From positions 1 to 47,196 of the forward strand of contig CAIVSQ010000321.1 in NCBI GenBank assembly GCA_903908605.1: a stretch of 47,196 bases of DNA. The letters are read 5' to 3'. Both the position numbers and the translations under genes were made by a program. Position 1 is the first letter of the stretch. Every line of letters begins with the position of its first letter. The DNA is from an uncultured Anaerolineae bacterium (GTDB taxonomy: Bacteria; Chloroflexota; Anaerolineae; Anaerolineales; Villigracilaceae). Under the pieces are notes generated by a model. It saw only the letters and a list, made by a program, of their open reading frames with translations. It had not been told where the DNA came from and did not search any database. Positions 1 through 12,203 of this stretch are shown here, piece by piece.

Positions 1-143
1 GCACGTACAAAACCGGCGTTGCCAAAGCCCCAACGGCGCAGTTCAAACCAAACGTGCAGACCCTTGATGGAGAGGATGGTATCTTCCGTCTCAGCTGCAA
101 CTGGAATATTTTTATCGATTGTATTGGTCATCTGATCAGACAT
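1..143 (-). CDS. Peptide ABC transporter ATP-binding protein (OppF/DppF-type), N-terminal fragment
   Basis: Only the first 47 codons are inside the window; the gene runs off the left edge. I read it by translating the minus strand from the ATG at 143-141. A GGGAG site lies 5 bases upstream; a second in-frame ATG four codons later is an alternative start. After a short polar leader the frame gives ILSIKGLHVWFELRRWGFG, the usual opening beta strand of the second ATPase of oligopeptide transporters, where a phrase like LKVWFPIRRG precedes the Walker A region. It begins 13 bases after the stop of the DppD-type ATPase, so it is the last visible gene of operon 1. It would supply the second nucleotide-binding domain. 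The Walker motifs are outside the window, so the call rests on this short stretch and on context. Confidence 0.75.
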   Translation of the reverse strand, partial: MSDQMTNTIDKNIPVAAETEDTILSIKGLHVWFELRRWGFGNAGFVR

Positions 144-156
144 GCCCGGCTCCCTG

Positions 157-1113
157 TTATTGATGTAACCAGCACTTGACTTTACGGCCATCTTTTTCGA
201 AGACGGGCGGTTCCTGGGCACATTTTTCAAAGCGCATGGTACAACGCGCGGCAAAACGGCAACCAGTGGGGGGATTGATCAGGCTGGGCGGCTGACCGGT
301 GATAAATTCCAACTCGCGGGTCCCACGCAAACGCGGAACACTGGACATTAGTTTTTGGGAATATGGATGCAAAGGCATTGAGAAGAAACGCTCGGCATCA
401 CTCATTTCCACCACCTGGCCAGCATACATGACGGCCACATCATCAGCCAGCTCGCTGGATGTGGCAATATCATGGGTAATGAGGATGAAACTGACACCCA
501 ATTCCTTCTTGATGCGTTTGAGAACATTGAAGATATTGGCCTGGGTGAGAACATCAAGCGCGGAGGTGGGCTCATCAAGAATCACCAGGCTGGGTGAGGT
601 CACCAGGGACATGGCGATGGCAACACGTTGGCGCATACCGCCCGAAAGCTCAAATGGGTAACGCTCAAGGAAATCCGCTGAAACACCCACATGCTGGAAC
701 ATTTTGCGAGCCATTTCGAGGGCTTCGGTTTTGCTGACTCCGAGATGCACCATGGCTGGCTCAGCCACCTGGTCTCCAACCTTGAGAACCGGGTTAAGAG
801 CATTCATGGCCGCCTGGGGAACGATGGACATGGCTGCCCAGCGAATGTCCTGGCGAAATTCTTCTTCGTTGAGTGGCATGATGTCCTTGCCATCCAGGAT
901 GATCTGACCGCTATACGCTGCCACGTTACGGGGTAACAAGCGTAAAATAGCCTTGGCAAGTGAACTCTTGCCACAGCCAGATTCGCCCAAGATGACGACC
1001 GCACGGTTATAGTCGAGCTCAAAATCAACACCATCCACAGCCTGTACCACACCGCTACCAGCGCGGAAATGTAAAACCAGTTTTTCGACTCGTAGTAATT
1101 TCTTCTCAGCCAT
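157..1113 (-). CDS. Peptide ABC transporter ATP-binding protein (DppD/OppD-type)
   Basis: 318 aa cytoplasmic ATPase that powers peptide import by operon 1. Visible motifs in order: Walker [10 protein letters not shown] near residue 43, Q-loop SIVPQAAMNALNP near 97, ABC signature [12 protein letters not shown] near 156, Walker B LVILDEPTSALD near 175, and switch histidine ITHD near 212. The C-terminal extension carries the oligopeptide-transporter zone with the cysteine motif GCRFAARCTMRFEKC. Length is normal for the family. The ATG at 1113 lies 3 bases after the stop of the upstream permease, so translation is probably coupled. The partner ATPase follows 13 bases downstream. The exact substrate cannot be read from the ATPase. 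Confidence 0.95.
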   Translation of the reverse strand: MAEKKLLRVEKLVLHFRAGSGVVQAVDGVDFELDYNRAVVILGESGCGKSSLAKAILRLLPRNVAAYSGQIILDGKDIMPLNEEEFRQDIRWAAMSIVPQAAMNALNPVLKVGDQVAEPAMVHLGVSKTEALEMARKMFQHVGVSADFLERYPFELSGGMRQRVAIAMSLVTSPSLVILDEPTSALDVLTQANIFNVLKRIKKELGVSFILITHDIATSSELADDVAVMYAGQVVEMSDAERFFSMPLHPYSQKLMSSVPRLRGTRELEFITGQPPSLINPPTGCRFAARCTMRFEKCAQEPPVFEKDGRKVKCWLHQ

Positions 1114-1116
1114 GGA

Positions 1117-2457
1117 TTACATACCTCTCAAGCGGGGGTTGAAAATACGGTCAAGCGCAAAACCGAGCATGGCAAAACCCAGGCCAGTGAACATCAACAA
1201 AACCGCGGGTTCCAAAATCCAGTAATACATACCCTTGTACAGGGCGCCGTTTGACCAGGCATCATTGATGATTTTTCCCCAGGTCGGAAGAACCGGGTCA
1301 CCAAGACCAAGCACAGCCAGCGACGCTTCGAGGAACACGAAGGAAGGAATGGCAGAGACCAGGCCAGGGATCAACAGGGGGATCATGCGAGGAATTAGAT
1401 AGAGGAAAATAATACGTCCATTACTGGCGCCATATGCACGAGCCGCTTCAATATAGGTTGATTCTTTCAACTGCATGAAGATGGCGCGGTAACCCTTGAT
1501 ACTGCCAGTAAAGATACTCAACAAGATAGTAGCACCCAGGATCACCCAAATACTACGCGAGTAGAAAGTACCAATCATGATCAGTATGTTCAGGAAGGGT
1601 AAAACCAGGTTAACCTCAGTGATACGCTGAATGAGTTCATCGACCCAACCGGCATACCAGGCGCCCAGCGCCGCGATGATCATGGTGAGGACGGATGTAC
1701 CCAGGGAAGCGATCAGACCGAAGGAAAGAGCAATGGGCGCGCCCCAAAGAAGCGGGATCATCAGGTCGCGGCGGGCGTGATCGGTACCAGCCAGGCCAAA
1801 AACCAAGCCGTGGAAGACAAATTCCACTTCCATGTCAGCGCCATCTTCAAATGTGACCGCATTCAGGATGAGTTTGTACTTACCCTTGAGAGGGACAGGT
1901 GGATTTGAATCCGGAATGGAAAACAACCCGGTCATAATTGCCTGATCCTTCAGACGGCGCTTGAGCTTCTCTTCCTGTGAAAAGCGAAAGGTCTGGGTCT
2001 TGGAGACACCAAAATCCGAAATGCGCACCTTGCGATTATCGGGCGTCTGCAAGTAAATGGACAGGAAGGGTTGTTTTGCGGTGTAAGTTGATTTTAGATA
2101 CAACAACATTTCCTGGGGAAATTCGTCGTATGAAAAATCGAAGTCATAGGTGAATTCAATCGAACTGGCACCAACACCCTTGGTCACTGTTTTGGTAATT
2201 TTGCCATCGAGACTCTTGACGGCAAATGATTCAGGCAACTTCTTTTCTGAGAAGAGATTTGTCCAGGCGGGGGGGGCGAAACGCGGGTTCTGGTACCAGA
2301 CTTCTTCACCACCACGCCAAAGGCGAATTGCCTCGTTATATGGAATAGTCGCCACGGCATAGACGGCCTCAGCGACAAATAGCAAGATGATGAAAACGCC
2401 CAAAATGGCCGATGGGTAGAGCATGATTTCGCGGAAAGCGTTTTTAATTGAGTTCAT
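1117..2457 (-). CDS. Peptide ABC transporter permease (DppC-type) with large extracytoplasmic insertion
   Basis: 446 aa, against about 280-350 aa for ordinary DppC/OppC permeases. Residues 15-36 form the first membrane segment. About 180 mostly polar, beta-rich residues (roughly 40-225) follow before the normal family core resumes at FGLAGTDHARRDLMIPLLWG, equivalent to the canonical GTD..GRD..SRLLYG. The C-terminal half has five further hydrophobic segments and an EAA-type loop around EAARAYGASNGRIIFLYLIP that docks on the ATPase. The inserted part should sit outside the membrane. It may contact the unusual binding protein encoded two genes upstream (inference). The start codon lies 8 bases after the upstream permease stop and has only a weak ribosome-binding site, suggesting coupling. 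Confidence 0.93.
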   Translation of the reverse strand: MNSIKNAFREIMLYPSAILGVFIILLFVAEAVYAVATIPYNEAIRLWRGGEEVWYQNPRFAPPAWTNLFSEKKLPESFAVKSLDGKITKTVTKGVGASSIEFTYDFDFSYDEFPQEMLLYLKSTYTAKQPFLSIYLQTPDNRKVRISDFGVSKTQTFRFSQEEKLKRRLKDQAIMTGLFSIPDSNPPVPLKGKYKLILNAVTFEDGADMEVEFVFHGLVFGLAGTDHARRDLMIPLLWGAPIALSFGLIASLGTSVLTMIIAALGAWYAGWVDELIQRITEVNLVLPFLNILIMIGTFYSRSIWVILGATILLSIFTGSIKGYRAIFMQLKESTYIEAARAYGASNGRIIFLYLIPRMIPLLIPGLVSAIPSFVFLEASLAVLGLGDPVLPTWGKIINDAWSNGALYKGMYYWILEPAVLLMFTGLGFAMLGFALDRIFNPRLRGM

Positions 2458-2465
2458 AATTAGTT

Positions 2466-3581
2466 TTATCCGCCAACTTTAACTCTTGGATCAACCAAGG
2501 CGTAGACAAAGTCCAGTAAAAAGACTGTTATGGCTAGTAAATAGGCATAAATGATGGTGGTTCCAACAATGACGGGCGTGTCATACAGCCCGATGGCTTC
2601 AAAGGAAGTGCGCCCCAGACCAGGCCAAAGGAATACCGTTTCGGTAATGGTGGCACCGCCCCACAAACCAATAATTAAAAGGGCAAAATTGGTAATGATG
2701 GTGGGCAGGGTTGGTCGCAGAATGTAGCGTTGTTCAATATCACGGGGCAAAAGACCCTTGGCCTTGGCCATTTCAACATAATCTTCGCTGGAATAGATCA
2801 AGAAGAAGGTGCGCCAACTGTAAATACTGATGAAGATCGAGCTGACAATCAGTGAGGAAGCAGGCAGGATCAAGTGTTGCAGCAGGCTAAGTGCGTATTC
2901 CACCTTGTTTTCGGGTGGAGGGGCTGAGACCATCCCACCAAATGGCAGGACTTTGAACACAGCAGCAAAAATCAGGATGAAGAAAATACCGTAAAACCAG
3001 GCTGGGGCAGCCGAGGTCGGCGAGAACGCAATGACCAGCTTATCCCAAAAACTACCATATTTCCTGGAAAGAGAAAGCGCCAGGTAAATGCTGGCAAAAA
3101 ATAGCAACAAGTTGGATGAACCCATCAACAACAACGTGGCAGGCAAACGCTCCAGAATGATCAGGCGAACCTGCCGGGAACCGCTGTCGCTGGACATGTT
3201 GATGGCACGTCCGAGATTCATTTGTAGAGCATTGGTGAGGTAGCCAAAATTTCGAATGGCGACCGGGATATCGAGGCGCAAGCGTTTTTCCTCTTTTTTG
3301 ATCAAATCCTCGATCAGCTTGCGCTTGGTATCCACATCCATACCTTTGTTCGCGGGGTTAGCCATGACTCTTTGCATGGTGTTCTCGCGAATTTCAGAGC
3401 GCATGATGTCATCGACATACCCACCCATGTTCGCAATCACAATCGTCAGGTAAATACCGATCACGATCGTGATGAACAGGGTGACCAACCTGACGCCGGT
3501 GTAACGCGCCACGCGCACCAAGGTGGAGTTGGTGGCTTTTTTCTTTTCAGAACCCGAACCTGACTGGCTACCAGATGTCAT
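2466..3581 (-). CDS. Peptide ABC transporter permease (DppB-type)
   Basis: 371 aa from the ATG at 3581, which has GAGG 7 bases upstream. An open extension to 3641 would run through a strong hairpin and has no ribosome site, so I reject it. The first membrane segment is residues about 25-46. It is followed by an approximately 100-residue charged extracytoplasmic stretch containing KRKLIEDLIKKEEKRLRLD, then the core: ERLPATLLLMG, further membrane spans, and the EAA loop EDYVEMAKAKGLLPRDIEQRYILRPTLPTII. It ends with ITETVFLWPGLGRTSFEAI and the C-terminal signature LVDPRVKVGG. It is the first permease of operon 1, separated from the binding-protein gene by the hairpin at 3606-3640. Confidence 0.94.
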   Translation of the reverse strand: MTSGSQSGSGSEKKKATNSTLVRVARYTGVRLVTLFITIVIGIYLTIVIANMGGYVDDIMRSEIRENTMQRVMANPANKGMDVDTKRKLIEDLIKKEEKRLRLDIPVAIRNFGYLTNALQMNLGRAINMSSDSGSRQVRLIILERLPATLLLMGSSNLLLFFASIYLALSLSRKYGSFWDKLVIAFSPTSAAPAWFYGIFFILIFAAVFKVLPFGGMVSAPPPENKVEYALSLLQHLILPASSLIVSSIFISIYSWRTFFLIYSSEDYVEMAKAKGLLPRDIEQRYILRPTLPTIITNFALLIIGLWGGATITETVFLWPGLGRTSFEAIGLYDTPVIVGTTIIYAYLLAITVFLLDFVYALVDPRVKVGG

Positions 3582-3605
3582 GTCCTTGCCTCGATAAATT
3601 AGGAT

Positions 3606-3640
3606 TGCTAGGGGCAAGGATATTCTCCTTGCCCCTAGCA
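3606..3640 (-). promoter_or_regulatory. Intra-operon hairpin between binding-protein and permease genes
   Basis: A perfect 15-bp inverted repeat (arms 3606-3620 and 3626-3640, 5-base loop) lies between the binding-protein stop at 3670 and the permease start at 3581. No T-run follows it on the transcribed minus strand, so it is more likely an mRNA-stabilising or processing hairpin, or a weak attenuator, than a full terminator. Such elements typically let the binding protein be made in excess over the permeases. Operon 2 has an equivalent at the same junction. Confidence 0.8.
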
Positions 3641-3669
3641 TTACATACGGTTTGAAACTAAATTTCGAA

Positions 3670-6210
3670 TTACGGGGCGGTCACGAACTCAAAGCTCGTG
3701 AAGGTCGGGACACTGACGGGCAGCGGGATAACGGCGATTTCGATCTTGTTGGAGCCGGTTTCGAGCTTGGCGGTTACATCAGCGGGCAGAACGACCTTGT
3801 ACTGACCATCGGCGACGAATTCAGCTTCGCCGACCAGAGCAACTTCGCCCTTGGCTTTGTAGAGCAGGTACTTGACCTTCTTGATCTCGGCTTGCGGGTA
3901 AGGAGCGCCAGCATAGGTTACGAAGACATCGAAGGAAGCTTCATCACCAATCTTGAGCTGTCCGGCACCATCGATCTGAGCATCGGCCAGCTTGGGAGCA
4001 CCAAAGACTTCCCAGCGGTCAGCAAGATCGGTGTAATCAGCAAAGTTCTTGAGGGTGAGGGTTTTCTCGGTCGGGAAGACCTTGTCGAGGACGTACGGAC
4101 CGGTGCCGATCCAGAAGTGGCCGTGGTCGCCAAAGAACTTGGCGGTGTTGGCGTAGCGGGCCTTGGCTTCATCAGCATTGACATACTGACCGAGGGTGGC
4201 AGCGTAGGGAACATAACCTTCGCCAGCGGCCTGATCAAGGTATTTCTTGAGGACATCGAGGCTTGGGCCGGCAATGTAGCTGGTCCATTCAATCGACTTG
4301 GCGCCAGCCTTGTCAGCCGAATAGGCCAGTTCGCCAGCAGCTTCGGCCAGGTTGGAAACAGCAATCATGTCCCACTTGGTACCAGACCACCAGGAGACGG
4401 CGAGGTTTTCAGCATCCGGGGTGGTGACATCGGAGTAGTACTCGATCACCAGCGGCTTGGTGGAAGCGATCTTGACGCCCTTGAAGGAGGACATGAAGGA
4501 GTCGTATTGGGGAACAGCGGCTTCATCGTAGATGGGGCTGTCGGTCTTGGCCTGGTCGAAGGTCATGATCATGCCCATAACGACATCGGCGACCGAGTAA
4601 TTGCTGCCATCATGCCACTTGACGGTGTCAAAGAGGTCGGCAGGGTAGGTCACAACGGACTTGACCTTGGCGGTCTTGCCATCACCGGCGGCGACGAAAG
4701 TACCAGCCTTGGCATCCCAATCAACCCACGCATCGGCGGGAACCTTGATTTCGGGAGCGGTATTGAGGGTAACCCAATCGAGGGTCTTGTTGGTGGGGGG
4801 CAGGCTATCGAGAACGGTGATTTCAGCGGATTCTGCGCGCAGAGGCCACTGGAGACCGGTGTAAGGATCGGGCATGAAGCCGCCACTGGCGGTGGCGCGA
4901 ACAGCAGCCTGGTCAAAGGTCCAGTTGCCACCGGCGATCGGGTTCCACGGATCAGCAATCAGGTTCTGGGTGGCCCACTTCATGGTGCCACCTTCCTGAC
5001 CCTTGAAGCGCAGGGTGTAGGGGTAGATTGAAGCGCTTTCAATACCAGCTGCCAGGTCGGAAGTGGCCTGAACGGTATCGAGGTAGGGGGTATAGTTCTT
5101 GCCGTCGATCAGGAAGACCTGCAGGGAGTCCTGGAGGCTGAGTTCCATGGCCTTGGCGAACATTTCCTTGCGCTGATCGAGGGTAGTGAAGGCGGAATTG
5201 GCCAGGTCATCGCCGAGCTTCTGGAATTCGGGATCGGAAGCATTGGCAAGGAAGACGGGCATACCCTGAACAGAGGTGCTCAGGTACATCTGCTGGAACA
5301 TATCCTTCTCATCACGGTTGATGGCGGTGGAGCTCCATGCAGCAGTGTAAGCGCCCCAGAGGCATTCAACCGGGTCGGATTGGATCCAGAGCGGGGAAGC
5401 TTCGGAGGCTTTCTTGTACTGGCGATCAACGGTGAAACCAACGGCTTCGAGCTGGGTGGCGACATAATCACCAATCGGCTTGCGGGTGCCATCGGAATCG
5501 GGGCGGATCAGCAGAATGATGGTAACGGGCTTGTCCTTGAACATCCATTTACCATCGGCGCCGAGGGTGGCGCCCAAGGCTTCCATCTGAGTCTTGACAA
5601 CTTCCTTGGCCTTATCGGGGTTGTAAGCGTACTTGGATTCAAGCGCGCGGGCGACATCAGCAAATTCAGCATAGTCGGGACCATTGGTTTGGATGGTGAA
5701 GAACTTGGCCAGACCACCACCAGCATACACTTCCTGGTTGATATAGTTGCGGTCATACATCCAGTTGGTGGCTTCGCGGATCTTGCGATCTGAGAAGGGG
5801 TTGAGCATGGTCTCGTCTTTGCAAACGGCCGGGTTGTAGATCATGTCATAGTACAGGCCGTTGGAGCTGGAGTAGCTCAGACCGGCTTCTTTGATGCTGG
5901 GGAGGTCGGCAGAAGAAACACCGTTGGCGTAAATATCAATAGCGCCGGCTTTAAGCTGGGTCACAGCTGAGTCCTTGGCAACCACAGAGAAAACGATCTC
6001 ATCCAGCCAGCCACCCTTGCGGGTAACGGGGACCTTGGTCGGTTCGGCTGTGGGGGGAACAGCGGTGGGTTCAACAGGTGCGGGAACTTCGGTCGCGGGG
6101 GCAGCCGGGGGTTCAGTCGCGGGTGCAGCAGTGGGCGTTCCGCAAGCGGAAAGCACCATGCTAGCAATCAGGACCAGACCAAAAATGGTCATCAAACGGT
6201 TTCGTAACAT
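3670..6210 (-). CDS. Family 5 peptide-binding lipoprotein with circularly permuted lobes and Ig-like C-terminal domain
   Basis: 846 aa from the ATG at 6210, which has AGGAGG 9 bases upstream. The signal peptide ends in lipobox LSAC (Cys23), followed by a Pro/Thr/Ala-rich linker to about residue 65. The next part reads LDEIVFSVVAKD..LKAGAIDI (69-93), DRKIREATNWMYDRN (141-155) and YNPDKAKEVV (196-205). In ordinary SBP_bac_5 proteins these belong to the later half. Only afterwards come the usual N-terminal-half elements: TMKWATQNLIADPWNP (409-424), PDPYTGLQWPLRAES (447-461), KWHDG (531-535) and GTGPYVL (702-708). Residues from about 740 to 846 look like a beta-sandwich (Ig-like) tail. The order is therefore permuted, with the break just before LDEIVF. 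Function is expected to be extracytoplasmic capture of peptides or similar solutes for the permeases of operon 1. Typical family members are about 500-600 aa. Confidence 0.92.
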   Translation of the reverse strand: MLRNRLMTIFGLVLIASMVLSACGTPTAAPATEPPAAPATEVPAPVEPTAVPPTAEPTKVPVTRKGGWLDEIVFSVVAKDSAVTQLKAGAIDIYANGVSSADLPSIKEAGLSYSSSNGLYYDMIYNPAVCKDETMLNPFSDRKIREATNWMYDRNYINQEVYAGGGLAKFFTIQTNGPDYAEFADVARALESKYAYNPDKAKEVVKTQMEALGATLGADGKWMFKDKPVTIILLIRPDSDGTRKPIGDYVATQLEAVGFTVDRQYKKASEASPLWIQSDPVECLWGAYTAAWSSTAINRDEKDMFQQMYLSTSVQGMPVFLANASDPEFQKLGDDLANSAFTTLDQRKEMFAKAMELSLQDSLQVFLIDGKNYTPYLDTVQATSDLAAGIESASIYPYTLRFKGQEGGTMKWATQNLIADPWNPIAGGNWTFDQAAVRATASGGFMPDPYTGLQWPLRAESAEITVLDSLPPTNKTLDWVTLNTAPEIKVPADAWVDWDAKAGTFVAAGDGKTAKVKSVVTYPADLFDTVKWHDGSNYSVADVVMGMIMTFDQAKTDSPIYDEAAVPQYDSFMSSFKGVKIASTKPLVIEYYSDVTTPDAENLAVSWWSGTKWDMIAVSNLAEAAGELAYSADKAGAKSIEWTSYIAGPSLDVLKKYLDQAAGEGYVPYAATLGQYVNADEAKARYANTAKFFGDHGHFWIGTGPYVLDKVFPTEKTLTLKNFADYTDLADRWEVFGAPKLADAQIDGAGQLKIGDEASFDVFVTYAGAPYPQAEIKKVKYLLYKAKGEVALVGEAEFVADGQYKVVLPADVTAKLETGSNKIEIAVIPLPVSVPTFTSFEFVTAP

Positions 6211-6360
6211 TTTGGTTCTCCTCCTAGAGAAAGTGGATGGAAATAAGATGGTGTTACTGACAAACAATTTTCTACAAAAGTTATGACAGTAGCCTCCTTG
6301 TCGGAATATTTTCCTATCCCGAAACAATAAAATAACAGGAATTTAAACCGGCAGAAATCA

Positions 6361-6471: not shown

Positions 6472-8442
6472 TCACTGCCCGCAAGCAGGTCCGAACTCAA
6501 ATTCCTCGACGTTCCATAGGTCATTGACCGCAAAAGCATCCAAGGCGAAATTACACATATCACGCCGGGTGGCGGCTGCTTTGATGCGTACATATAGAGG
6601 GACGGATGGCAAGTCATTGGTAAAAATCACCTGGGCTTTGTCATAGGCATCCTTGTATTCGGCACTACCAGGCAGTCTGCGCATCCCCTGAGCACACAGC
6701 GCATCATAATCGGCATTGGTATAACCGCTGATGTTGATTCCCAACCATTTGTTGAATTTGGTCGGCACCTGGCTGGTTACAAACCAGGAACACGGGGGTT
6801 CGGTACCAATGGTACCCAGTGCGTATTCCGCCAGATCAAACTTGCGACCAAACAGGGGGCCTTCGGGACCGGAGGCGTAAAATTCATCCTGACTGTAATA
6901 TTTTATATCAACACCCACCCCGCACTGAGACAGGGAATCAGCCAAAATTTCGCTGACCTGGCGACGCTGGAGGGCGGAGGTTGTCCAGTAGCTGACGACC
7001 AGCTTGGTGCCGTTGGGTACATTTTTTACACCATCGGCCACGCGAGGCGTGCCAGCGTCATTATCATCATCCAACCAACCTGCCTGGGTAAGCATGGCAC
7101 TGCCAGAATTGGGGTCGAAGGGGAACTTGGCAGTGTTGGGGTTATAGTATGGATGCGAGGGAGCAACAAAAGTTTCAGGAATCGCTGAGAGACCGGCCAA
7201 GACCGTAGTGACCACCTTTTTACGATCCAGGCAGAAGGCAATTCCCTGGCGGGTGCGGACATCTCCGAACAAATCCACACGATCACCAACCATCGAAAGA
7301 TCATCATAGGCGGAGGGAACAATGCCAAAATCCAGCCGTTCAATCAATGGGGTGGTGGAAGTAAGCAGCTTGACCTGTTCGCTGCGCTGCAGTTCTGTGA
7401 GTAAATCTATTTCACTTTCCAGACGCAAGCTGGTATCGAGCATATCGCATTGCCCGGAGACCAGGGCACTGATCCCGGCAACCGCATCTTTTACAAATAG
7501 GAAAGTGAGCGTATCAAAACGTGGCAGGTTTTGTGAAGCAAAGCGAAAATAGGAAGCGTTACGTTCGAGACTGATGTAGTTGCCTGAGGACCATTCCTTA
7601 AAGACATAGGGTCCCCAACCAAGCGGGGGATATGCCTGAACATTGCCCTTGGCAAGCTCTTCCGGTGCAACCTTGCCCCACAGATGGCGTGGAAGCGGTG
7701 ACCAGAAATTAGCCTGATAGGTGGGGTCTACAAAACCGGGAACTCCCCACCACTGAACTGTCAAATCATCAACCGCTTCGTAGGAAGCCGTGCGATCGAT
7801 GAGATATTTGGAACCAGGGGTAGCTGGTGCTGATGCTAATTCAAAAGCAAAAAGCGAATCATCGGCAGTGAGCTTCTGTCCGTCGGACCAGGTGAGGTTG
7901 GGCAGCATCTTATAGGTGACGACCAATTGGTCCATCTTCAAATCGGCGCGACCGTCGTATTTGATGGAACAGGCATCTTGAGTACACCCACTGGGCAGCA
8001 CATCCAGGCCAAAATCGAGGATGGCAAAATTACCATGCGCATCGACAACCGGGTCACCACGTTTTACAGCCGCCGGGGCGAGCTGGGCTTCTCCGTTTTC
8101 AATGGTAGGGATTTTTTCAAGGATGACAGCCTGATAGCCATTGGTAAAAACATCAATGGGGCCATCATAAATCGCGCCGAGCACACTGCGCGCGGCTGAA
8201 TTAAGAGTTCCAAAGGGGTAGAGTGTATTGGGTTCCTGGCCCAGGCAAACGGTCAGGCCACGCGGCAGGGTGTGGGTGGGGCTGGGCTGAGGGGCGGGTT
8301 TACTAACCTCAAGAACTGGAGGGGTGGGGGTTTGTACAGGCACCAGAATGGGCAGGGATTGGAATGGATCCAGCCCACAGGCTGAAAGCGGAAGCAATAC
8401 AACGACCAAAATCAAAAACAGGAATTTTTTCTTCCTGGACAT
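6472..8442 (-). CDS. Family 5 extracellular solute-binding lipoprotein, solo gene
   Basis: 656 aa from the ATG at 8442; GGAG lies 6 bases upstream, whereas the in-frame ATG at 8454 has no ribosome site. The lipobox is LSAC (Cys22), followed by a Pro/Thr-rich linker. Family 5 elements occur in the canonical order: TVCLGQEPNTLYPFG, LPNLTWSDGQKLTADDSLFAFE, GWGPYVFKEW, SALVSGQCDMLD, then DVRTRQGIAFCLDRKKVV. No permease or ATPase gene is adjacent in the same transcript, and it has its own candidate promoter. It probably delivers its ligand to one of the two flanking transporters (inference). Extra cysteines in SGCTQDACSI could form a disulphide. The ligand is unknown; peptide is the default expectation for the family. 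Confidence 0.9.
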   Translation of the reverse strand: MSRKKKFLFLILVVVLLPLSACGLDPFQSLPILVPVQTPTPPVLEVSKPAPQPSPTHTLPRGLTVCLGQEPNTLYPFGTLNSAARSVLGAIYDGPIDVFTNGYQAVILEKIPTIENGEAQLAPAAVKRGDPVVDAHGNFAILDFGLDVLPSGCTQDACSIKYDGRADLKMDQLVVTYKMLPNLTWSDGQKLTADDSLFAFELASAPATPGSKYLIDRTASYEAVDDLTVQWWGVPGFVDPTYQANFWSPLPRHLWGKVAPEELAKGNVQAYPPLGWGPYVFKEWSSGNYISLERNASYFRFASQNLPRFDTLTFLFVKDAVAGISALVSGQCDMLDTSLRLESEIDLLTELQRSEQVKLLTSTTPLIERLDFGIVPSAYDDLSMVGDRVDLFGDVRTRQGIAFCLDRKKVVTTVLAGLSAIPETFVAPSHPYYNPNTAKFPFDPNSGSAMLTQAGWLDDDNDAGTPRVADGVKNVPNGTKLVVSYWTTSALQRRQVSEILADSLSQCGVGVDIKYYSQDEFYASGPEGPLFGRKFDLAEYALGTIGTEPPCSWFVTSQVPTKFNKWLGINISGYTNADYDALCAQGMRRLPGSAEYKDAYDKAQVIFTNDLPSVPLYVRIKAAATRRDMCNFALDAFAVNDLWNVEEFEFGPACGQ

Positions 8443-9177
8443 ATACCTCTCCATTGGTGCACCGATTTCTAGGCGATGCAGAATCCTACCGTAACTTACG
8501 CTATCGATCAAGCCTTACGCCAACTGATCGCGTGCATAAGATTACCATAAAATAATACACTATTATGTCAAATAAAAAAGCCTCACAATTTGGAAATCCT
8601 GGCGAAATGACAAAATTGGCCCGGTTTGCTGTTGGAATGTAGCTCACTATACCGATCGTGTATGTGCCGAAGACATCAGCTCTCCCCGCCTTTTGATTTT
8701 CGGGTTCGCACATTCATCCTGACCTGCCATACGGTCGAAGCCCCGTCATGGAGTGTAAAAGGCAAAGAAAGACAGTGTTGGCAGCTGAATTTTTGGGGAA
8801 AAGCCAGACCACCACTATAGCAGGCGGTGCCTTCATTGAAAACCGTAGAGTGGAAAAGATAGGTGGCAAATCCGGTGCTGCAATAGCCCTGCAACTTGCA
8901 CACATACAATCTGACGATATTAAACTAAAGAAAGGGGAACAGGGGAGTGAAATTTCCAACCCGGCGCCCCGGGCATTCCATTATTCGCCTTAATAACAGA
9001 GAGACAAAGTACCAATCCTGGCAGGAATCGCATAAGCCAGACGTTGGTTGACCAGCCTGAAGAATTCGTCCTTTATAAATGAGGCCTAATTCTCAAAAAC
9101 ATCACCACTCAGCCGGAACAAGAGCCCGGTCGCTACGCCATCCTCATTTTTCGCGTGAGGGACACAACGCCAATCAA
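8443..9177. other. Gene-poor stretch, 735 bp
   Basis: No convincing gene. Short overlapping open frames on both strands between about 8626 and 9342 lack good ribosome sites and match no family I recognise. Base composition near 8700-9000 resembles coding DNA, so a decayed gene is possible, but I cannot name one. The part nearest 8442 holds the candidate promoter of the solo binding-protein gene. Confidence 0.5.
8544..8571 (-). promoter_or_regulatory. Candidate promoter of the solo binding-protein gene
   Basis: The minus strand has TTGACA (8571-8566) and, after 16 bases, TATGGT (8549-8544). The -35 box is nearly perfect; the -10 box matches four of six consensus bases. It lies about 100 bases upstream of the ATG at 8442, in an AT-rich segment. 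Confidence 0.5.
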
Positions 9178-10179
9178 TTATATTTTTTCCAGGCCAATAC
9201 CAGCACCCGATGGAAGGCTGAAGGAAGCACCGCTATATTTCAAGCCACGATAGGGATCGTTTTTTATCAAAAGTGGTCCATCCAGGTCGGCATACTCACA
9301 AAGGGGCGCAAGGTGGGCGGCGGCGGTGACCCCTACAGATGACTCGACCATACAGGAGAGCATGATCTGCATGTCATAGGCACGGGCGACGTGGATAGCG
9401 CGCAGGGCCTCGCGTAACCCGGCTGTTTTCATCAATTTCACCACCACGCCATCCACCGCGCCCGCCAGGCTGGCAATTTCCCTGGATGTTTTGGCGCTTT
9501 CATCGGCAAAGATTGGCAGGGTAATTTTTTGCTTACTCAGTTGATCCTTGAGCCAGAAGAAGCCTTCAATATCATCCACCGCGAGTGGCTGTTCGACAAA
9601 TTCAAGATCATATTCGGCCAGCCGTGGGATGAGACGCAAAGCCTGTTCACGGCTCCAACCGGCGTTGGCATCCACTCTTAAACGAGCAGTGGTGGACTGG
9701 CGAATGGCAGCCACTATCGCGAGGTCGCCTTCGCCGCCACCCAACTTGACCTTGATAATCGGGTAACCGGACTCGGCTGCCCGGCGCGCCATCACCTCAG
9801 GCTCATCCATCGCAATCGTAAAGGAAGTCAGCGGTAAGTTATTTGGATTAAGCCCAAATAAGCGGTAAAGCGGCTGACCCAGGCGTTTGCCCCACAAGTC
9901 GTGCAAAGCTATATCAACTGCTGCCCGGGCAGCACGTGAGCCAGGCGGGAGACGAGCCAGGACACCATCGATATCAAACAGGTCATCGCCCAGATCGGGC
10001 AGGTGCTGCAGATAATCGACAATACCTTGCTGAGTTTCGCCATAATAGGGAACGGCGGGCGCTTCACCGACCCCTTCATCAAGATGCACCAATACATTAA
10101 AGCGCTGGTCATCGGCACCGTGGGCAATACGAAATGTGGTTTTCAGGTTCAGGCAAATGGGTTCAATCGTAATCTTCAT
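9178..10179 (-). CDS. ykfB: Dipeptide epimerase, L-Ala-D/L-Glu epimerase type (enolase superfamily)
   Basis: 333 aa from the ATG at 10179, with GGGAG 7 bases upstream; the extension to 10206 has no ribosome site. It has the muconate-lactonising fold with the epimerase residues in order: KxK in IIKVKLGG (Lys143, Lys145), metal ligands Asp170 (RVDANAGW), Glu196 (VEQPL) and Asp226 (ADES), opposing base Lys248 (VVVKLMK), and the substrate aspartate in DLDGPLL (about Asp300). This set is typical of dipeptide epimerases that interconvert L-Ala-D-Glu and L-Ala-L-Glu so that ordinary peptidases can use murein peptides. Specificity varies in the family, so the exact dipeptide is inferred. Neighbours are peptide transporters and, divergently, an NlpC/P60 peptidase that could produce its substrate. 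Confidence 0.9.
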   Translation of the reverse strand: MKITIEPICLNLKTTFRIAHGADDQRFNVLVHLDEGVGEAPAVPYYGETQQGIVDYLQHLPDLGDDLFDIDGVLARLPPGSRAARAAVDIALHDLWGKRLGQPLYRLFGLNPNNLPLTSFTIAMDEPEVMARRAAESGYPIIKVKLGGGEGDLAIVAAIRQSTTARLRVDANAGWSREQALRLIPRLAEYDLEFVEQPLAVDDIEGFFWLKDQLSKQKITLPIFADESAKTSREIASLAGAVDGVVVKLMKTAGLREALRAIHVARAYDMQIMLSCMVESSVGVTAAAHLAPLCEYADLDGPLLIKNDPYRGLKYSGASFSLPSGAGIGLEKI

Positions 10180-10265
10180 GGATAGTCTCCCGAATGGCAA
10201 TAGCACCGCAGGAATTTTTTATGGGTCCCGCATCTGTAAGGATGGGCTGGAAAAACGGAACATGG

Positions 10266-10422: not shown

Positions 10423-11439
10423 ATGATCGATCAAATTAAAGAATTTATTCAAAATTTTGCCAAGACCTACGCTGATGAACGGACCAATGTTTTCAAGATC
10501 GAAATTGAGTCTCATCAACAGGGACTGGTGGCATTGGGCGGGCGTGTATTAGACAACAACCAGCTAGAGCTGTTGTCAGGACGGCTCAACAGCCAGTTTG
10601 GCGGCTTGCAGGTGGATGCACAAGGGGTGAACATCCTGCGTAAACCCGGCAACCCGGTAATGGCGGTCGGGACCAACCTGACCAGTCTGCACACTTCGAC
10701 CTCCTTTATTTCTGAAATGTCCAGCCAGTTGGTCTTTGGCGAAAGGGTGGAGATCCTCGAAGAACAGGGAAATTGGGTTTTTACCAGGCAGATGGATGGC
10801 TACCTGGGTTGGACGTATAAACCTTACCTGAGTGCGAACCTGCCTGCACAAGCCAATCACATTGTGCTGGCCCCCTCGGTAGAGTTGTTGGCGGAACCGA
10901 TGAATGGAGCCGCAGTTCTGACGCGTATTTTCTGCGGCACACAAGTTGAGCTGCTTTCAACCCAGGGCGGCTGGGCACAGATACAGGCTCACAAAGTTGG
11001 CTGGATAAAACAAAAGGATTTGCGCGCGCTATCGGAATTTCCAGGCACATATGCCGCCAGACGGAATATGATCAAGCGCGACACACAACGCATGATTGGT
11101 GTACCGTATTTATGGGGCGGATCGGCAGGAAATGGGATTGATTGTTCAGGGTTTGCACGCCTGGCGCACCGCTGGATTGGGATTGAGATTCCGCGCGATG
11201 CGGACATGCAATCAGCCCAATGCCAACGAGTCGAAGCCCCTTACCGGGCAGGCGACCTGTTTTTCTTCGGCGAGGGTGAGGGCAAACGACGCATCACACA
11301 CGTGGGCATCTGCATGGGCGGCTGGAAGGTACTGCACTCCTCACGCAGCCGCAACGGAGTCTACCTGGACGACCTGCAGGAAAAAGAATTTCTACGAAAC
11401 ATCTTTGTGCACGGGGGATCCTTCCTACCCGGGCGATAA
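10423..11439 (+). CDS. ykfC: NlpC/P60 gamma-D-glutamyl-diamino acid endopeptidase, YkfC-like
   Basis: 338 aa; GGAG lies 5 bases before the ATG. No signal peptide, so probably cytoplasmic, as expected for peptide recycling rather than wall cleavage. Residues about 20-60 (FKIEIESHQQGLVALGGRVLD) resemble a BON-like alpha/beta module. Residues about 65-205 contain two bacterial SH3-like repeats (GERVEILEEQGNWVFTRQ..GYLGW and GTQVELLSTQGGWAQIQ..KVGW). The catalytic NlpC/P60 domain (210-338) shows Cys241 in GIDCSGFA, His293 in ITHVGIC and His305 in VLHSS. SH3 repeats plus a Cys-His-His NlpC/P60 domain is the YkfC architecture, which cleaves L-Ala-gamma-D-Glu-diamino acid peptides with a free N-terminus. 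The divergent epimerase would act on the dipeptide released. Confidence 0.88.
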   Translation: MIDQIKEFIQNFAKTYADERTNVFKIEIESHQQGLVALGGRVLDNNQLELLSGRLNSQFGGLQVDAQGVNILRKPGNPVMAVGTNLTSLHTSTSFISEMSSQLVFGERVEILEEQGNWVFTRQMDGYLGWTYKPYLSANLPAQANHIVLAPSVELLAEPMNGAAVLTRIFCGTQVELLSTQGGWAQIQAHKVGWIKQKDLRALSEFPGTYAARRNMIKRDTQRMIGVPYLWGGSAGNGIDCSGFARLAHRWIGIEIPRDADMQSAQCQRVEAPYRAGDLFFFGEGEGKRRITHVGICMGGWKVLHSSRSRNGVYLDDLQEKEFLRNIFVHGGSFLPGR

Positions 11440-11477: not shown

Positions 11478-12203
11478 TTAGCTATCCTCGTCTGCCGATT
11501 TTGTTTTTCTGGAAGACAACCATAGGGGCAAAAGCAAACCGCCCATCAAGATCAAAATACAAACCACGAACCCATACGCCATCACATTGTTGGAATAGGT
11601 CGGCGAGAAGGGTGTAAGCGGTGTTGGGGTGGGAAGCTTGATATGGATGATATACAACGCGGCATTGTCCGCGTCGATTGTGCTCGATTCCTTCCAAAGC
11701 CCGTTGGAACGCAGCAGGAAAGCAGTAACCTGCCAGTATTCGTTCTCTTTTAAGGTACCGGGGGCGTGCCAGGGCATGTATTTTTTTATGTAGTCATGCA
11801 AAGCCAATCCGTTGCTAAAACGATCGGTTAGTACCGGACCGATCACCCCGGGAATTTTGCGGGGCAGCTTAAACCCTTCTGGAGGATGATTGGCGGCATG
11901 GCAGCGAGATTCCCAGCAGGAATTTTTACCAAGATCCCACTCCTCCATCCATTCGGGGGTCAGCCCCTGGCCTTTGTCACCATGGCAGGCCATACAGACA
12001 TAATAATAGACCTGGGCACCGTAGTCAGCCTGATCTGGATTGTCCCCGAGGGGCGGGGGCACCATTAAATCCATAGGAGAGGTCATGCCCGGAGGTGTGG
12101 GGGTTGGCGTGATTTCCTGCGCAGAGGCAGGCTGGGTAACAATGATAAGAGCCGGGCTTAGCACCCCCAAAACAACCAACAAAAAGATCAGCTTGTTTTT
12201 CAT
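11478..12203 (-). CDS. Membrane-anchored cytochrome c family protein
   Basis: 241 aa. The N-terminal signal sequence ends near ALIIVTQPASAQE and is followed by a Thr/Pro linker. A canonical heme c site CMACH is at residues 70-74, with a plausible distal Met143 in KKYMPWHAPGT. A second motif, CWESRCH (96-102), has four residues between the cysteines instead of two; it could be an atypical heme site or a structural disulphide. One C-terminal membrane segment (about 207-229) ends in Arg/Lys and an acidic tail. This suggests an extracytoplasmic electron carrier held in the membrane; redox partners are not in the window. The ATG directly follows the terminator of operon 2, with no recognisable ribosome-binding site and almost no room for a separate promoter. 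Confidence 0.85.
   Translation of the reverse strand: MKNKLIFLLVVLGVLSPALIIVTQPASAQEITPTPTPPGMTSPMDLMVPPPLGDNPDQADYGAQVYYYVCMACHGDKGQGLTPEWMEEWDLGKNSCWESRCHAANHPPEGFKLPRKIPGVIGPVLTDRFSNGLALHDYIKKYMPWHAPGTLKENEYWQVTAFLLRSNGLWKESSTIDADNAALYIIHIKLPTPTPLTPFSPTYSNNVMAYGFVVCILILMGGLLLPLWLSSRKTKSADEDS

Follow-up and report, generated by a model that had tools for sequence, protein, structure and literature searches.

A natural, probably circularly permuted family 5 substrate-binding lipoprotein at the head of an Opp-type operon in Anaerolineae

Can a two-lobed substrate-binding protein (SBP) of family 5 be built from a chain in which its two halves have changed places? The question is raised by a gene of an uncultured Anaerolineae bacterium, located on the minus strand (3670..6210) of the window, the whole stretch of 47,196 nucleotides that was analysed. 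The gene encodes 846 amino acids starting from Met 40 of the open reading frame 3670-6327, from which the residues of the window protein are numbered. As read from the sequence, a signal peptide with the lipobox LSAC at its end (residues 1-23, 6142..6210) is followed by a Pro/Ala/Thr-rich linker leading from the lipid anchor to the fold (residues 24-67, 6010..6141). Profile matches and a model of residues 66-410 then delineate the canonical C-terminal half (residues 68-405, 4996..6009), comprising a late domain I strand, domain III and the canonical C-terminus; the domain names I, II and III and their limits are those that we take to be in use in the OppA/DppA literature. The canonical N-terminal half (residues 406-733, 4012..4995), delineated by profile alignments to a solved OppA and to canonical proteins, contains an EGGTMKW..NP opening, KWHDG, GTGPY and NFADY, and the chain ends in an Ig-like/macroglobulin-like beta-sandwich tail (residues 734-846, 3673..4011), assigned from a structural model and fold matches; all of these segments lie on the minus strand. 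The favoured interpretation, with a probability of roughly 0.9, is that of a natural circularly permuted cluster C (family 5) lipoprotein that acts as solute receptor for an ABC importer of the Opp type.

A residue check located every motif where the initial annotation had placed it and in the swapped order that it had described: LDEIVF (69-74), LKAGAIDI (86-93), DRKIREATNWMYDR (141-154) and NPDKAKEVV (197-205) precede KWHDG (531-535), GTGPYVL (702-708) and KNFADYTDLADRW (721-733). The cut point, proposed directly ahead of LDEIVF, was right as well, and the old C- and N-termini are joined by almost no linker. By its aligned motifs, the window protein thus has the make-up of a family 5 SBP whose elements are circularly permuted (C-terminal half, then N-terminal half, with an Ig-like tail behind them), and it departs from the canonical topology, in which the N-terminal half comes first. 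Pfam SBP_bac_5 (PF00496) recognizes the protein with 82.9 bits (cut-off 32.4), positions 148-349 of the family falling on the first half (ORF residues 108-334, E 3.2e-23), and it matches 31/31 members of the permuted family at E 0.01 or better. Annotators should be aware that this match covers half of the protein, which may therefore look truncated. The remaining two SBPs in the window, suggested as internal controls, are indeed canonical, with PF00496 positions 15-348 and 2-360 in normal order; one of them, identified by Pfam, lies directly upstream (6472..8511, minus strand).

The closest solved relative of both halves is OppA of Thermococcus kodakaraensis (7fi3). A PDB search with the single sequence matched 7fi3 at E 3.5e-24 in two segments whose order is swapped, and so did a 31-sequence profile at E 4.2e-72: profile residues 417-671 align with 7fi3 63-307, and 9-276 with 7fi3 324-618. 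Each half aligning to 7fi3, both lobes are present in the window protein. For the other 29 PDB chains listed, which are canonical SBPs (AppA and DppA among them), the best stretch falls in the first half. 7fi3 differs from the window protein in its canonical order, and merely 16 residues separate its matched stretches (307, 324), so that it has no tail domain there. The canonical family 5 SBPs (DppA, OppA, AppA; PF00496) are likewise homologous to the permuted protein in both lobes but differ in the order of the halves and give no match to the tail. 7fi3 scores 252.9 bits against the permuted family versus 42.0 bits against the canonical SBPs of the phylum, and it groups with the permuted family (100/100) to the exclusion of eight other family 5 SBPs.

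Restoring the canonical order removes the discontinuity. When the profile is joined in this order, 7fi3 is matched as a single domain of 252.8 bits, versus two domains of 100.3 and 148.3 bits in the native order. In a rotation scan against 7fi3, the best single piece reaches 141.1 bits in the native order, 131.1-135.5 bits at rotations 30-90 and 244.8 bits at rotations 300-390; this plateau, which includes the proposed junction at 338, is expected because the available 7fi3 stretch begins past the opening of that half. For comparison with canonical proteins, a profile of 35 sequences was used, eight from the source genome and 27 from its relatives. The local profile-profile score against the canonical family rises from 178.1 (native) to 214.7 (rotated), and the rotated profile is the only one to align end to end (1-664 on 69-568). 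The corresponding scan against L002 yields a broad plateau at rotations 320-620 and no peak at the junction, since in the N-terminal half it is the GTGPY stretch alone that is strong in this comparison. None of the profile alignments that were run had the halves in normal order, and the de-permuted profile was continuous on 7fi3 as well as on the canonical proteins.

The uneven strength of the halves would also fit a fusion, in reverse order, of two half-receptors from different genes. Against ordinary canonical SBPs, the N-terminal half is far weaker than the C-terminal half: on its own it reaches best probabilities of 93.7, 77.7 and 73.8, which belong to three templates that each cover another part, and its opening obtains 0.1-0.3, being covered once within the full profile (344-578 on 67-294, probability 65.9). 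Such a fusion is nevertheless unlikely, as both halves match 7fi3 well (100 and 148 bits) and become collinear once rotated.

Structure prediction bears on a further possibility, two incomplete tandem lobes that do not make up a single permuted fold. The whole-chain model (pLDDT 41.9) indeed lacks a confident two-lobed fold, but it was built on six sequences and is of low confidence for most of its length, except in the tail and in some parts of the first half; a search of viral contigs for more first-half sequences yielded none. The first half modelled alone (residues 66-410, pLDDT 53.9) was taken for fold matching only. Residues 51-299 of this model superpose on 7fi3 402..717 with Z 16.5 and an rmsd of 3.3 over 237 aligned residues, and the first half of the chain hence resembles the half with which the canonical fold ends. 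Every canonical element is met once in the alignments, which does not give the picture of two incomplete tandem lobes, and de-permutation produces one collinear alignment. The tandem arrangement is accordingly very unlikely, and we infer a single permuted two-lobed fold from the alignments.

By its sequence, the chain begins at the domain I strand that canonically follows the GTGPY/NPDYW segment, passes through the C-terminal lobe, crosses the junction of the old C- and N-termini and runs through the N-terminal lobe, ending at the starting place of the fold. It would close into one normal two-lobed receptor, which would trap oligopeptides and hand them to its own permease. Tandem duplication with subsequent trimming, put forward in the initial annotation, is a plausible, if putative, route to this arrangement.

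The tail is modelled with confidence. Its ten-residue pLDDT means are 71-90 with one exception at 56, and it matches MG, Ig and PKD-type domains with Z 10.5-12.1 across 84-106 residues. The predicted beta-sandwich is therefore a likeness at the level of fold, not of family, and an Ig-like C-terminal tail, as originally assigned, is borne out by this confident part of the model (residues 734-846). A Pfam search with the tail of the window protein gave no match; FlgD_ig was found on the tail in 2/31 members (best E 0.00059), and the tail profile matched nothing among the canonical sequences (probabilities 0.1-0.3).

The permuted form is widespread among relatives, as a survey suggested at the outset has established. 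Relatives occur in 29/301 sampled Chloroflexota genomes and are collinear with the window protein across both halves (in G168 in two pieces); since the match is collinear, relatives spanning both halves have the permuted order. In the class Anaerolineae, 114/396 genomes contain a match, with identities down to 25-28%; several have two copies, numbers that are lower bounds because two to four candidates were scored per genome. A few of the 114 matches are partial, owing to contig ends or to an insertion near residue 550. A genome-wide scan with window-specific patterns returned five loci with Anaerolineae-type titles. A search around G040, covering two genomes of the same phylum, found nothing, and plasmids gave no match to P0001 (E 1e-5) or to pieces of 7fi3 (E 1e-3). 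With the de-permuted query, no unpermuted homologue was detected at E 1e-15 among the at most three candidates scored per genome in the 301 genomes; the matches came from the same 29 genomes and were all pieces of permuted proteins, none spanning most of both halves. In the alignment of the permuted family (33 rows, including the window protein), the tail comprises at least 107 residues in 31 rows.

This distribution leaves hardly any room for an assembly chimera or a frameshift artefact of the metagenome. The source assembly, with 612 contigs and 6.44% contamination, would invite such a suspicion, but the same order recurs in relatives from 29/301 genomes, including the single-contig genomes G005 and G112, and in four of five named records, the fifth (L015) stopping at a contig edge before the second half; the independent assemblies refute an artefact. 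The family also varies in size and copy number. The genome G256 (L116, G256:C85; L117, G256:C64) encodes the permuted receptor at least three times, with two of the copies in tandem, and its two aligned copies, L039 and L046, are the rows that lack the tail. Longer open frames of 973-1012 amino acids are found in L038 (G168), G370, G376, G520 and G637, where some 90-100 extra residues near query residue 550 split the match of the N-terminal half.

Whether the family goes back to one event is less clear. The most distant members (L040-L045) and the main branch may have been permuted separately, or the 7fi3 lineage may have reverted. In a careful tree, 7fi3 is the neighbour of the distant branch (100/100), and two changes are required by the well-supported branches of that tree; not one of 200 bootstrap trees (0%) has a branch that sets all permuted rows apart from the rest, and a larger quick tree gives 7fi3 the same place with support 92. 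The shared tail and the identical cut point, on the other hand, fit a single event, one permuted clade is not rejected (p-AU 0.136), and 7fi3 is a lone long branch that is represented here by a partial sequence. More than one permutation within the family is thus possible, yet doubtful.

A second permuted family 5 SBP, termed type B, is encoded in the same genome (L007:901-2682, minus strand; G000:C388:20345-22123). A PF00496 search of the source genome found positions 61-366 ahead of positions 2-53 in one open frame, which places the cut between positions ~53 and 61. Type B matches at E 1e-60 in 38/301 genomes (partially in G227), and a rotation scan of it reaches its maximum where the junction was proposed (624.2 versus 505.2 in the native order). 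Like the first family, type B is a permuted family 5 lipoprotein with oppB beside it (in 28/30 aligned loci, L049 and L050 being the exceptions); unlike the first family, it has another cut, has no tail and is placed among canonical proteins. In the quick tree, it forms one supported group among these, apart from the first family, a placement that carries a long-branch warning. Because the cut and the place in the tree differ, the two families appear to have arisen through independent permutations.

A reason for retaining a permutation may lie in membrane anchoring. In the sequence alignment, members of the main branch have a lipid at the N-terminus and a linker as their tether, and a loose lipobox pattern is present in 26/33 aligned rows, the window protein's among them; at least one of the 26 (L020) is spurious, lying in an upstream extension. 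Among the six aligned members that are most distant, four (L040, L042, L043, L044) continue beyond the tail with a linker rich in Gly or Pro, followed by a hydrophobic helix. This helix is probably a membrane anchor that replaces the lipid. Both types of anchor would leave the fold at the permutation site, that is, at the new termini, and this coincidence gives rise to the proposal that the permutation has been retained for shifting the anchor to another point of the fold. The idea does not hold universally: L041 and L045 have neither lipobox nor C-terminal helix, L036 has no lipobox, and L042 and L043, two of the four helix cases, are near-copies. More generally, and quite tentatively, the anchor site may be under selection and permutation may be a recurrent way of moving it, with at least two cluster C families cut independently at different loops and the lipid and C-terminal helix anchors of the first family sharing the new termini. 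If so, lobe order within the chain would count among the traits of ABC importers that can evolve.

To our knowledge, few two-lobed receptors are circularly permuted as a whole in nature. Among the matches listed, a permuted family 5 SBP is named in no open-access title or beginning of an abstract. TpMglB-2 (Tp0684) of Treponema pallidum is described as a circularly permuted and tethered SBP that has kept ligand binding, a glucose receptor of type I/cluster B in which the permutation adds a fourth lobe crossing; the authors suggest the terms "Type Ic" or "Cluster Bc" and also raise an adaptation to membrane anchoring (PMC4990184). TpMglB-2 and the window protein are alike in circular permutation and tethering and differ in the cut and, judged by the family 5 matches of the window protein, in fold class. 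Two conserved families with different cuts in one phylum, each with permease genes beside it, would provide a natural experiment on whether ABC import depends on lobe order, the order of folding and the site of the anchor.

The genomic context points to a receptor of an importer. Signal peptide and lipobox are accompanied by adjoining permease and ATPase genes, as expected for an Opp/Dpp-type receptor. The genes that follow in the same operon, all on the minus strand, encode an oppB-like permease (2466..3641, 391 amino acids, Pfam BPD_transp_1), an oppC-like permease (1117..2457, 446 amino acids), an oppD-like ATPase (157..1113, ABC_tran and oligo_HPY) and, to judge by an open frame and the context in relatives, probably the start of an oppF gene cut by the end of the window (1..143). 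Twenty neighbourhoods of up to 20 kb from 19 of the 29 genomes were compared. An oppB gene comes next in 19/20, oppC is present in 19/20, oppD in 18/20 and an oppF-like gene directly after oppD in 18/20; the order SBP-oppB-oppC-oppD-oppF, headed by the permuted gene, is found in 18/20. The exceptions are L121, with oppB and oppC only, and L117, with no permease. A sensor or surface-binding protein might be considered in view of this L117 copy and of the extra tail and linker, which are reminiscent of surface proteins; with the whole oppBCDF set in 18/20 neighbourhoods, such a role is improbable. For the importer's receptor, binding of peptides is suggested by analogy, as 7fi3, the nearest solved relative, held an endogenous pentapeptide.

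Several features of the neighbourhoods deserve mention. The oppC-like protein (1117-2457) exceeds solved OppC/DppC by about 140-160 residues, which lie ahead of the conserved permease part; they follow the first hydrophobic segment, and its relatives are equally long (frames of 446-511 amino acids where unfused to a neighbouring frame). The P2 loop of MalF contacts its receptor, and by analogy the extra segment might do so too. A relative of the canonical SBP (6472-8511) is found near the operon in L105, L109, L111 and L124, and weakly in L121. Between the two Opp systems of the window lie an epimerase-family gene (mandelate-racemase/enolase family, 9178-10206) and a gene for an NlpC/P60 peptidase with SH3 repeats (10423-11439), a set that we presume to be reminiscent of murein-peptide use. 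The murein-peptide link was rejected: the two genes occur in 0/20 neighbourhoods of relatives, for which reason no substrate is claimed from them. In L122 (G292:C53), oppBCDF is preceded by two consecutive permuted SBP genes that belong to the distant branch. A cytochrome c-like protein (11478-12203; PF13442, barely at the cut-off) adjoins the second opp operon of the window and is found again in L109.
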